A DNA stretch of 64,000 bases. Source: Actinomycetes bacterium. GTDB taxonomy: Bacteria; Actinomycetota; Acidimicrobiia; Acidimicrobiales; Palsa-688. The position numbers and the translations under genes were made by a program. Position 1 is the stretch's first letter. The number at the start of each line of letters is the position of its first letter. Below, piece by piece: positions 41,591-45,764 of this stretch. The DNA lies in contig JAKCDU010000002.1 in the NCBI GenBank assembly GCA_021838445.1, positions 1 to 64,000 on the forward strand, in the 5' to 3' direction. The notes under the pieces were generated by a model that saw only the letters and a program-made list of their open reading frames with translations, searched no databases and was not told the DNA's origin.

Positions 41591-42016
41591 ATGAGCACGT
41601 GGTATTCGATCGAGGTCTTCGATGGGGCCACGTCCGCCTCGGTTTGGGCGGAGGCCTACCGCGACGCGTTGATGGAGACGGCGGTCACATCGGGGGCCTC
41701 GGACTGGTCCTGGCACCGCCACACCTGGGGTGTGGTCTTCGAGGTCGCCTTCGCCGACGAGCAAGCGTGGGAGGACTACGCCAACCTCCCGGTGGTACGA
41801 GCCGCCCTCGACGCCGTGCCCGACCCCCTCACCGGCCTCATCGTCTACCGGGGCCGGGGTGGAAGCAGCGGGTCGCCTTTTCCCCGCAAGCCCCGCCCTC
41901 TGGTCGGTTCCGGCTCTGCTGCGCTCCCCCTCCCGTGGATCATGAGCAGCGACGACCTTCCTGCTCTCACCCCGCTGACCCTGCCGCTGGCCATCCCGGT
42001 CGCTGCCGGCGCCTGA
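41591..42016 (+). CDS. Hypothetical protein, ferredoxin-like fold probable
   Basis: A 141-residue protein that I do not recognise. Residues 1-90 (WYSIEVFDGATSASVWAEAY, WSWHRHTWGVVFEVAFADEQ, WEDYANLPVVRAALDAVPDP) alternate strand and helix as in small alpha/beta stress or dimeric barrel proteins. The C-terminal 50 residues are Pro/Ser/Leu-rich and end in an Ala-rich tail near a duplicated 20-base segment. ATG start, weak ribosome-binding site, downstream of uvrD2 by about 85 bases. Confidence 0.6.
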   Translation: MSTWYSIEVFDGATSASVWAEAYRDALMETAVTSGASDWSWHRHTWGVVFEVAFADEQAWEDYANLPVVRAALDAVPDPLTGLIVYRGRGGSSGSPFPRKPRPLVGSGSAALPLPWIMSSDDLPALTPLTLPLAIPVAAGA

Positions 42017-42075: not shown

Positions 42076-42816
42076 TCAGTTCGGTAGATGTTGAGTTTCG
42101 TCGGACGTCGGCGAGGGCCGCGGCTGTCGCTGATCGGCCAGAGCCCTGAAGGTCTCGGCTTTCATGCTTACGAACAGCCCGGTGGCTTCGGCGGTGAGCG
42201 TTTCCCCGCAGTACATGCGCCCGCTGACCAGCACCTTGCGACCACTCACGGAGTCCACGGTGCCCTCCAGCCGCAGGACGCGGTGCAGGGGGGTCGGTCG
42301 GCGGTACTTCACCGTCAAGGTGCCGGTCATGCCGGCCTGCCCGGAGAGGGACTGGGTGAGACCCAGTAGTTCGTCGAAGGCAGCCGCGATGATCCCCCCG
42401 TGGACGCAGCCGGGAGGCCCCTCGTAGGCGATGCCGAACCGGGCTCGGCCGGCGATGCTGCGGCCGTCCACCCAGACCCGCATGGGGGGAGCCAGCGGGT
42501 TAGCCAGACCCAGCAGCGGGGACCAGTCGAAGAAGGCCCGGTCCGGGCCCAGACCGGAGGCCTCAGCCGTGCCGACGTAGCCCCGCACGACCTGGCCGTG
42601 GGGCTCGAGCAGCTCCTCCACGGGGGCCAGCCGGGCCACGATCTCGCGCAACACTCCGGGCGGAGCGGATGTAGCCGTGAAGCGATCGATGATCCGCCGC
42701 AGGGCCTCCCCGGCCTGGCGGGCGGCGGCCACGTCGTCGGTGACCGGCCCCTCGACCGCCACCAGGCGCTCGGCCATCCCGGCCGCTCTCGCCTCGTCGA
42801 TCTCGAACGGCTCCAT
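42076..42816 (-). CDS. PaaI-family hotdog thioesterase
   Basis: A 246-residue protein with a C-terminal hotdog domain of the PaaI type: RARFGIAYEGPPGCVHGGII, then AAAFDELLGLTQSL and TGTLTVKYRRPTPLHRVLRL, which line the acyl-CoA site. The N-terminal 100 residues are helical and not part of the hotdog fold. Start shares one base with the xth stop (TGATG), so it is translationally coupled to exonuclease III although functionally unrelated. Confidence 0.85.
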   Translation of the reverse strand: MEPFEIDEARAAGMAERLVAVEGPVTDDVAAARQAGEALRRIIDRFTATSAPPGVLREIVARLAPVEELLEPHGQVVRGYVGTAEASGLGPDRAFFDWSPLLGLANPLAPPMRVWVDGRSIAGRARFGIAYEGPPGCVHGGIIAAAFDELLGLTQSLSGQAGMTGTLTVKYRRPTPLHRVLRLEGTVDSVSGRKVLVSGRMYCGETLTAEATGLFVSMKAETFRALADQRQPRPSPTSDETQHLPN

Positions 42817-43592
42817 CAGGCCGCCTCGACGTCGACGAAGACCGGTGCGTGATCGGACGGCTGCTTGCCCTTGCGGGCGTTGCGGTCGACCAGAGCCCAG
42901 CGCATCCGGGCAACCAGCGGTTCGGTCATGAGCACCAGATCGATGCGCATCCCCCGGTGCTCATGGAAGTCCCCGGCCCGGTAATCCCAGTAGGTGTACA
43001 GCCGGTCGTCGGGGTAGCGCCGTCGGAAGGCGTCCACCAGCCCCCACTCCTCCAGACTGATCAGCGCCTGCCGCTCCGGTTGGCTCACGTGGGTGGAACC
43101 GCTGAACGCGGCGGGGTCCCAGACGTCGGCGTCGGTGGGGGCGATGTTGAAATCTCCGCAGACGGCCACCTCACCGTCGGGACGACCCAGGGCGTCGACG
43201 TGGTCACGCAGCCGTTCGAGCCACGCCAGCTTGTAGGCGTAGTGGTCCGAGTCGAGGCTGCGACCGTTGGGTACGTACACGCTGCTCACCGTCACCCCCC
43301 CGCAGGTGGCGGTGATGATGCGGGTGTCAGGGTCAGCTTCGAGGTGGGAGGCGAACCCCGCCACTGGGTCGTCGATCCCCACCCGGGACAGGATGGCCAC
43401 CCCGTTCCACTGACCCGAGCCGTGATGGACGCTCTCGTAGCCGAGGGAGGAGAAGGCCATGTGCGGGAACGCGGCGTCGCTCAGCTTGGTCTCCTGCAGG
43501 CACAGCACGTCGGGGCGGGCGTAGCTGATCCACTCCTCGACGCGCGGCATACGCACTTTCAGTGAGTTGACGTTCCAGGTGGCGATGCGCAT
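42816..43592 (-). CDS. xth: Exodeoxyribonuclease III (AP endonuclease)
   Basis: ExoIII-family AP endonuclease for base excision repair. Start at the ATG giving MRIATWNVNSLKVRM. Catalytic residues are in LCLQETKLSD (Glu), VYVPNGRSLDSDHYAYKL, VCGDFNIAPTDADVWDPAAF (Asp/Asn), RIDLVLMTEPL and QPSDHAPVFVDV (Asp-His). 258 residues. Lies between the NYN-domain gene and the thioesterase. Confidence 0.96.
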   Translation of the reverse strand: MRIATWNVNSLKVRMPRVEEWISYARPDVLCLQETKLSDAAFPHMAFSSLGYESVHHGSGQWNGVAILSRVGIDDPVAGFASHLEADPDTRIITATCGGVTVSSVYVPNGRSLDSDHYAYKLAWLERLRDHVDALGRPDGEVAVCGDFNIAPTDADVWDPAAFSGSTHVSQPERQALISLEEWGLVDAFRRRYPDDRLYTYWDYRAGDFHEHRGMRIDLVLMTEPLVARMRWALVDRNARKGKQPSDHAPVFVDVEAA

Positions 43593-43670
43593 GACCAAGT
43601 CATCGTAGGGGCCATCCCGGAGGTGGTGACCATCTCGGGTCCGCGGGAGGCAGCTGCCAGTTCGCTGAAG

Positions 43671-45764
43671 CTAGCCCCTACCGGTCGAGTACGGGTTCCT
43701 CCGGCCCGCCGGTCGAGCCGTCGCCTTGGTAGCGGCCTTCTCGACCGGCGCCTCCCTCGGAGCCGCCTGCTCGACCGAAGCCTTACGCGGGGCGGCCTTC
43801 CTCGAGGCCGCCTTTCCGGCTGCCACCCCCACGACTGAGGTGTCGCCAACCGCCTTGGTTGGGGTGGCCTTGTCGGCCGCCGACTTCCGAGGCGTGGCCT
43901 TGGTCGCCGCCGCCTTCCCGGCCGCCGCCTTCCCGGCCGCCGCCTTCCCGGCCGCCGCCTTCTTGGAGGCCGCCTTGTTGGGGGCCGCCCTTTCGGCTGG
44001 CGCTTTCTTGGGGGCCGCCTTTTCGGCCGGCGCCTTCTTGGCCGCAGCCTTCGGCGCAGCTGTCTTCGGCGCCGCGGCCTTCCCGGCCGCAGTCTTCCCC
44101 CCCGTGGCCTTACCGGCGCCGGCCTTACTGGCCGTGGCCTTACTGACGCTGGCCTTACCGGCCGCCCTCTCAGCAGGGGCCTTCCTCGGCCCAGTCTGCC
44201 CAGCCGGGGCCTTCTCGGCCGGAGCCTCGTCGGCCGCCGCTCTCCTCGGCGCCGCCTTCTTGGCCGCCCCCTTCGCAGCCGGGGCCTTCTCAGCCGGGAC
44301 CTGGCCGGCTACGGACCTGCCGGACCCGACCGACCGACCCGCCGCGGCGCGGCGCGGCGTCGAGCCCTCGGCCTCGGTCACTTCGGATACCGCCGTCTGT
44401 TCGGCCGCGACCCGCCTAGCCGGGGACTTCCGGGCCGGGGTGGCCACCGAAGCGGATCCAGCCGGGATCTGTGCGGTCGCCGCCTTGTCGGCCGCGGGCC
44501 TGCGGGGAGCGACGGCTGTCGCCGCGCTGAGCCCCTCACCTACGGCCTTGCGGCTCGCGGCCTTGCGAGCCGCCACCTTCCTGGCCGGCCCGGACTGGCC
44601 GGTGAGTGGGCCCGCAAGGTCTTCCGGTCCGGCCCCCTCCGACGCCATCGGGCGGCCGTCCACCGACGGGCGGGCCGCAGCCCGCGAAGCCGGCTCAGCC
44701 TCCCCCGCAGCGGTCTTGGCCGCCGCTCGACGGCGCGGCGCCCTCTTCACCGGCTCCGCCTCGGCAGGCGCGGCCAGGGCCGCCCCGACACCACTCAGTT
44801 CCTCGTCGTCATCGGGCTCGGCGGCGATCTCGGCTTCCACCGTCTCGGCCGTCGGGCTGCCCGCCACCCGGGCGAAGCCGGGCAGAGCCAACTCGACCCC
44901 CCGCCGGGGAGGATCGAATGCCTGGACCACGAAGGTGCGGGCCTCGCCCTTGGTGACCACTTCCCTCGCCCGCCGCGGCGGCGGGGACGCCATGGCCGAC
45001 AGCGGGATGTAGCAACGGGCCCCGTCGGCTTCGATGAAAGCACCGTGGGAGGAGTACTCGAGCACCGAACCCACCACGTCGCTCCCCAAAGGATGGGCGG
45101 CAATGAAGGTGATGAAGGCCAGCGGCTCGTTCACCGGTTCGGCCGGGGGGACACTGGAGCGGCGTCGGCGGGACTTGGACCCGCTGGCCGGCTCGACCAC
45201 CTCTTCGGTGGCGCGGGCGATGGCCCGGTCTATGGCCTTGGGCCGGGACTTCGGTCGGCTCTCGGGTGGGTGCTTGGCGCCGGCGACGTCGGCCTCCACC
45301 CGCTTCTTGCGCTTGGCCTCCTTGGTCACCTCCCGACTCTTGGCGCCCCGCACGGGTGTGCGATCCATGAAGATCCAGCCCACGCCCGGCACCGGCTTGC
45401 CGCCGACCAGCCGGCCCTTCTCGAACAGCCACACGTGCTCCCCGTGGAACTCCTGGAAGGAGTCGTTCGAGAGAACTGTGGCTCCGGTCTTCTCGGCGAT
45501 GCGCAGCAAGAAGGCGTCCCCCCGGCCGATGGCCCCCGCCGGTGGCGACACCACCTCCCCGGCGGCCTCAGCCCCCTCGAAGTCGGCCAGCTCCGACGGG
45601 TCGATCCGGTGACCGAACGAAGCGTCCACGACGACTGTCACCTGGTCGTCGGGGTTCTCGGCGATGAACTCTCTCACCGCCTGATCCAACTGGGCCAGAC
45701 TGGGCATGTTTCGGCCCTCGGTCGCCAGGTTGGACCCATCAACTATCACGTGGCGCACTGACAT
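43671..45764 (-). CDS. NYN/Zc3h12a-type nuclease domain, S1-like domain and histone-H1-like tail
   Basis: A 697-residue three-part protein. Residues 1-140 form an NYN (PIN-like) nuclease domain with candidate metal-binding acids in HVIVDGSNLATEGRN (Asp9), TVVVDASFGHRID (Asp47) and TVLSNDSFQEF (Asp101). Residues about 212-300 resemble an S1-like RNA-binding domain (DVVGSVLEYSSHGAFIEADG, ARCYIPLSAMASPPPRRARE, VELALPGFARV). Residues 320-697 are a Lys/Ala/Pro-rich tail like eukaryotic histone H1 or the tail of mycobacterial HupB, including repeated AAAGK units encoded by 15-bp repeats (about 43906-43965). NYN RNases with S1-like parts are known in Actinomycetota; the very long basic tail is the oddity. 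Predicted: structured-RNA or DNA-associated ribonuclease. Confidence 0.87.
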   Translation of the reverse strand: MSVRHVIVDGSNLATEGRNMPSLAQLDQAVREFIAENPDDQVTVVVDASFGHRIDPSELADFEGAEAAGEVVSPPAGAIGRGDAFLLRIAEKTGATVLSNDSFQEFHGEHVWLFEKGRLVGGKPVPGVGWIFMDRTPVRGAKSREVTKEAKRKKRVEADVAGAKHPPESRPKSRPKAIDRAIARATEEVVEPASGSKSRRRRSSVPPAEPVNEPLAFITFIAAHPLGSDVVGSVLEYSSHGAFIEADGARCYIPLSAMASPPPRRAREVVTKGEARTFVVQAFDPPRRGVELALPGFARVAGSPTAETVEAEIAAEPDDDEELSGVGAALAAPAEAEPVKRAPRRRAAAKTAAGEAEPASRAAARPSVDGRPMASEGAGPEDLAGPLTGQSGPARKVAARKAASRKAVGEGLSAATAVAPRRPAADKAATAQIPAGSASVATPARKSPARRVAAEQTAVSEVTEAEGSTPRRAAAGRSVGSGRSVAGQVPAEKAPAAKGAAKKAAPRRAAADEAPAEKAPAGQTGPRKAPAERAAGKASVSKATASKAGAGKATGGKTAAGKAAAPKTAAPKAAAKKAPAEKAAPKKAPAERAAPNKAASKKAAAGKAAAGKAAAGKAAATKATPRKSAADKATPTKAVGDTSVVGVAAGKAASRKAAPRKASVEQAAPREAPVEKAATKATARPAGRRNPYSTGRG

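Follow-up and report, generated by a model that had tools for sequence, protein, structure and literature searches.

A gene in the window (the whole stretch of DNA that was analysed, 64,000 nucleotides) encodes a 697-residue protein in which an NYN/Zc3h12a-like nuclease domain was joined by a basic linker to an S1 RNA-binding domain, followed by a long histone H1-like tail. The frame began with ATG on the minus strand, and an open reading frame check gave exactly the coordinates listed here. Pfam, profile searches, the AlphaFold model and fold searches agreed on this architecture, which the sequence-only reading had proposed, and the domains, active site and spread of the protein are solidly supported. 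The parts were located as follows:

43671..45764, minus strand: whole gene (NYN, linker, S1 and basic tail), 697 aa
45351..45764, minus strand: NYN/Zc3h12a-like PIN-fold nuclease domain, residues 1-138 (PF11977; KHNYN/ZC3H12A profile; fold Z 14)
45129..45350, minus strand: basic linker, residues 139-212 (AlphaFold model; charge)
44871..45128, minus strand: S1 (OB-fold) RNA-binding domain, residues 213-298 (PF00575; bS1 profile; fold Z 14.2)
43671..44870, minus strand: low-complexity histone H1-like tail rich in K, A and P, residues 299-697, stop included (HC2; composition; rapid evolution)

In HMM searches, the isolated NYN and S1 parts matched PF11977 and PF00575, respectively, and the assignment to the NYN RNases held, since PF11977, the profile matches to KHNYN and ZC3H12A and the Regnase-like fold all concurred. 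When the whole protein was searched against NCBIfam, the only matches were weak histone-like and S1 ones, all below the NCBIfam cut-offs. A plus-strand ORF of 428 aa (43726-45012) was rejected as a true gene because it is antisense to the repeats of the tail and homologues kept the minus frame.

When residues 1-140 were searched by themselves, residues 3-110 matched RNase_Zc3h12a (PF11977) with an E-value of 1.5e-9 and 38.2 bits; the full 697-residue protein scored 33.3 bits, above the Pfam cut-off of 23 bits. The same domain was matched in 66 of 66 scanned family members (E 0.01 or better). A profile built from 22 homologous NYN domains gave human KHNYN (8wzc, E 1.7e-6) as its best match in the PDB and also matched ZC3H12A (3v32, E 2e-5), ZC3H12B and ZC3H12C; beyond KHNYN and ZC3H12A/B/C, this PDB search gave no match at E < 0.1. 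The AlphaFold2 model, made from an alignment of 66 sequences, had a mean pLDDT of 88 in the core and values above 90 along most of the length of the NYN and S1 domains. Comparison of residues 1-138 by VIA-align gave ZC3H12C at Z 14.5 (rmsd 2.6 over 131 residues), MCPIP1 at Z 14.4 and KHNYN at Z 14.2. Foldseek concurred, although its TM-score for the NYN part against Regnase, scaled by target length, was only about 0.6-0.66. The acidic residues of the domain are given below with their aligned counterparts in the human immune RNase Regnase-1:

45738..45740, minus strand: Asp9 of DGSN, equivalent to Regnase-1 D141 in the alignment
45516..45518, minus strand: Asp83 of GRGD, equivalent to Regnase-1 D226 in the alignment
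45462..45464, minus strand: Asp101 of SND, equivalent to Regnase-1 D244 in the alignment
45450..45452, minus strand: Glu105 of SFQEF, aligned with Regnase-1 D248
45624..45626, minus strand: Asp47, non-acidic in Regnase and KHNYN and so not among the conserved metal-site acids

Residues D9, D83, D101 and E105, the DGSN motif and S99-N100-D101 were invariant in 116 of 116 homologues. An active site of D9, D47 and D101 had been proposed from the sequence; D9 and D101 were borne out. D47 was wrong: it was also invariant in the 116 homologues, but KHNYN has Q and ZC3H12A has S at this position. On this alignment the third acid should instead be D83, accompanied by E105. The NYN domain carries in these residues the complete acidic site of a predicted nuclease. 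In Regnase-1 the metal is bound by D141, D225, D226 and D244 (PMC12982082).

The S1 domain searched by itself matched PF00575 over residues ~227-292 (E 4.4e-5, 24.2 bits, against a Pfam cut-off of 22 bits); in the whole protein the score was 19.2 bits, slightly below that cut-off. PF00575 was matched in 57 of 66 scanned members (E 0.01 or better), and a search with the S1 domain of the window protein found a counterpart in 116 of 116 homologues. Whole bS1 chains were matched by the core profile with E-values down to 6e-26, and residues 213-297 of the model superposed on Mycobacterium tuberculosis bS1 at Z 14.2 with an rmsd of 1.3 Å over 85 residues. The domain is closest to those of ribosomal protein S1, with which it shares fold and sequence; unlike bS1, the Acidimicrobiia protein has just one S1 repeat, attached to a nuclease, and is not a ribosomal protein. 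In the linker, helices were predicted at residues 141-162 (confidently) and 177-184, with a disordered, low-confidence middle, and the net charge across residues 141-212 was +10. The linker of one homologue (L111) was filled by GKVAAAGGA-type repeats.

Several known systems share parts of this design. The Regnase-1/ZC3H12A-C (MCPIP) proteins, the best fold match, have an NYN/PIN domain with equivalents of the acids at D141, D226, D244 and D248, the last being E105 in the Acidimicrobiia protein. They are eukaryotic, have a CCCH zinc finger where the Acidimicrobiia protein has S1, and lack a histone-like tail. Consistent with this difference, C251 in the S1 domain was the sole cysteine among the 697 residues, and no zinc-finger Pfam family was matched. 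KHNYN, the best PDB sequence match, likewise joins an NYN nuclease to a small RNA-binding-type domain, but it is a vertebrate ZAP cofactor. Its module is of the KH type rather than S1, and its domain order is different. Among bacterial proteins that have been studied, the closest in function are Rae1/YacP, a ribosome-dependent endoribonuclease of the NYN superfamily, and a CRISPR-associated NYN RNase, which is Mn2+-dependent with a D13A-sensitive site (PMC11346440). Rae1/YacP belongs to another Pfam family (NYN_YacP, PF05991), which was not matched by the NYN-S1 protein; the only PF05991 match of the genome was on another contig (C61).

Taken together, the sequence and the model suggest that the protein is most likely, and with fair probability, a metal-dependent endoribonuclease of the NYN/Zc3h12a class, with S1 holding the RNA and the basic tail adding affinity, by analogy with Regnase and KHNYN. 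The S1 domain would capture single-stranded RNA, probably mRNA or another RNA, and hand it to the NYN site for internal cleavage that would depend on Mg2+ or Mn2+. The tail, rich in K and R, may help the enzyme to bind polyanions (RNA, ribosomes or nucleoid DNA) without specificity and to stay on them longer. The genome also encodes RNase E/G, RNase J and YacP; the NYN-S1 enzyme is therefore an addition and not a stand-in for a missing RNase.

The tail of the window protein had a short acidic start followed by degenerate KAA, KAP and RKA units, with a net charge of about +39. The Lys/Ala/Pro tail seen in the sequence-only reading was thus present, although it spanned about 399 rather than about 375 residues and its first stretch was acidic. 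It matched HC2 (PF07382; E 8e-13, 49 bits against a cut-off of 40, and 44.6 bits in a rescan within the genome), a match driven by K/A/P composition. Part of the tail was encoded by a repeat:

43867..44296, minus strand: 15-bp tandem DNA repeat, ~29 degenerate copies, encoding KAA/KAP units

Third-position GC was 0.87 in the core and 0.84 in the tail. Compared with the homologue L059, the core was 98% identical, its codon differences being 33 synonymous and 5 replacement, against 51 synonymous and 110 replacement in the tail. The high third-position GC and the 110 replaced codons with zero stops indicate that the tail is read in the minus frame. The core is under strong purifying selection and the tail is not. 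At E 0.01, the genome had a single other HC2 place (L140 1570-2166, minus strand; G000:C30 near 230740), which argues against a lineage-wide habit of H1-like tails on every protein. The 198-aa protein encoded there had a KKAPAKKA-type tail and an N-terminal part that looked helical and phasin-like by eye.

Long tails are usual in the family and not peculiar to the window protein. In the 87 complete homologues, the stretch that follows S1 was longer than 200 aa in 34, 100-200 aa in 39, 20-100 aa in 5 and at most 20 aa in 9, so that tails are common but are not one fixed tail. The nine proteins that end just after S1 (L042, L044, L046, L047, L048, L121, L132, L137 and L138) formed one clade without the tail. 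Their linkers, mostly of KKAP/KATK style, had a median length of 149 residues and a median charge of +25, compared with 79.5 residues and +10 in the others. The two-domain tree was consistent with a single origin of the tail-less form by one change (support 84/81), which was recovered in 82% of bootstrap trees, and repeated independent loss of the tail was rejected on this tree. Because the origin was single, the linker comparison (Mann-Whitney) counts as one event and not as independent evidence. In this clade, the basic disordered region was kept while its place in the chain shifted from the end to the middle.

These data bear on whether the tail is simply the neutral product of a slippage-prone, GC-rich 15-bp repeat, the working enzyme being NYN and S1 alone. 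This explanation concerns the tail only and is compatible with the RNase reading. The repeat array, a replacement rate far above that of the core, and tail lengths of 0-473 aa among the 87 complete proteins, including absence of the C-terminal tail in 9 of them, speak for it, and the long tail of L069 had a net negative charge. However, the net charge outside the domains was positive in 86 of the 87 (median +42) and zero in L069, the reading frame was preserved across indels, and the tail-less clade had the longer and more basic linkers, here again one clade and one event. A neutral tail is, on balance, doubtful. In a truncated protein (L086), the sequence ended in an acidic GQDSA pentapeptide run.

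The family was confined to one class in the genomes sampled. The 116 distinct homologues with both domains and every catalytic acid were all placed in Acidimicrobiia, bacteria of soil and water, the placement being taken from the titles of the locus records. L059 and L121, whose records name Acidobacteriota or Acidobacteria, are probably mislabelled metagenome bins, because their protein and gene order fall among Acidimicrobiia. The gene was single-copy in its own genome, which had no second PF11977 match. Of 61 relatives taken from its genus, family and order, 52 had the gene, as did 95 of 246 genomes of the class, most of which belonged to the same order. All 20 PF11977 matches in a sample of 296 genomes from the phylum were in the same order or class and coincided with NYN-S1 family matches; no member was found outside Acidimicrobiia in this sample, other phyla being unevenly sampled. 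Phage and plasmid collections gave no match to the protein, and a mobile or phage origin was rejected. Some genomes that carry the main protein (G049:C36, G053:C13, G406:C130, G481:C28, G530:C139, G553:C1 and G558:C101) also had a remote second NYN-like match over residues ~3-95 (32-36% identity); the open frames concerned were 155-267 aa long.

The surroundings of the gene had been read as a hint of genome maintenance. Downstream were found:

42816..43598, minus strand: xth, exonuclease III family (PF03372), 72 bp downstream of the NYN-S1 gene
42076..42816, minus strand: thioesterase-superfamily gene (PF03061), with one base in common with xth

Beyond the thioesterase gene, in convergent orientation, was the gene of a UvrD-type helicase that includes an HRDC domain, and upstream of the NYN-S1 gene came a HAD hydrolase gene in divergent orientation, followed by kgd. 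Between the helicase and thioesterase genes, a 141-aa ORF (41591-42016, plus strand) with no Pfam match was conserved at 60-98% identity in several relatives. Among loci with enough sequence, kgd was near the NYN-S1 gene in 68 of 75 and the HAD gene in 40 of 75, and for xth the figure was 47 of 59; these counts express nearness, as a match anywhere in the locus was scored and the available flank length varied. The order kgd-NYN-xth is conserved but functionally ambiguous: an old neighbourhood that mixes metabolism and repair does not decide the function. The protein might be a nucleoid-tethered nuclease of genome maintenance, its H1-like tail keeping it on DNA while it acts together with exonuclease III (and UvrD2). 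Its targets would be R-loops, damaged DNA or RNA within DNA. The HC2-like tail, the frequency of xth and the closeness of UvrD2 in several loci would fit, as would the H1-like lysine repeats of TopA, which act on DNA. Metabolic kgd, however, was at least as constant a neighbour as xth, which weakens the hint, and in many other members xth lay beyond kgd on the opposite strand; the S1 domain, moreover, resembles ribosomal S1 most. This role is judged unlikely.

A role in the processing of stable RNA (tRNA or rRNA maturation), of the sort played by protein-only RNase P or Rae1, in which S1 and the tail would dock the enzyme on the ribosome or the precursor RNA, appears similarly improbable. PRORP metallonuclease domains were matched in fold at Z ~13 (VIA-align), the conservation and single copy look housekeeping-like, and the S1 domain is similar to those of bS1. 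Against it, the sequence profile matched Regnase and KHNYN with no PRORP chain over threshold in the PDB searches, and the gene was missing from many well-assembled genomes of the class, hence it is not essential class-wide.

For the favoured RNase reading, the nearest precedent for the tail, by analogy, is the lysine repeats of actinobacterial topoisomerase I. Topoisomerase I with its C-terminal repeats and HupB/HupS also place an H1-like basic repeat tail on a nucleic-acid enzyme or binder, and the TopA repeats make the enzyme leave DNA more slowly and act more processively (PMC7398561). These proteins act on DNA, and their catalytic domains are unrelated to NYN. Polybasic tails bind polyanions without distinction, and the ribosomal type of the S1 domain makes mRNA or the ribosome at least as good a candidate as DNA. 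It is possible that the enzyme is held on the nucleoid or nascent RNA by its tail, as first suggested. The stronger proposal of chromatin-linked RNA surveillance, in which a polycationic region able to sit at different points of the chain would tether the Regnase-type nuclease to the nucleoid or to complexes engaged in transcription or translation, seems quite unlikely. A defence or toxin RNase degrading RNA in infected or stressed cells has a parallel in the CRISPR-associated NYN RNases (PMC11346440) but is very improbable given the single copy, the one conserved neighbourhood and the zero phage or plasmid matches.

The union of an NYN domain with an RNA-binding module, in Regnase and KHNYN, and H1-like tails on DNA enzymes are already established. 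What is apparently new is the combination of NYN, S1 and a polybasic region, together with the shift of that region from end to middle in one clade. No description of NYN with S1 was found in the literature searched on bacterial Zc3h12a-like and Acidimicrobiia NYN proteins, a scope outside which most subscription papers fell, or in a 2024 S1-domain survey, although it may have been listed earlier in a 2017 survey of the PIN superfamily. Many Acidimicrobiia have in common a bacterial Regnase-like nuclease that carries an RNA-binding domain of ribosomal type and a tail resembling histones. If chromatin-linked RNA surveillance were true, RNA would be cut at its site of synthesis by a lineage-specific bacterial RNase. 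The natural variants with a long tail, a short tail or an internal basic region offer a ready test of what disordered polycations do on an RNase.
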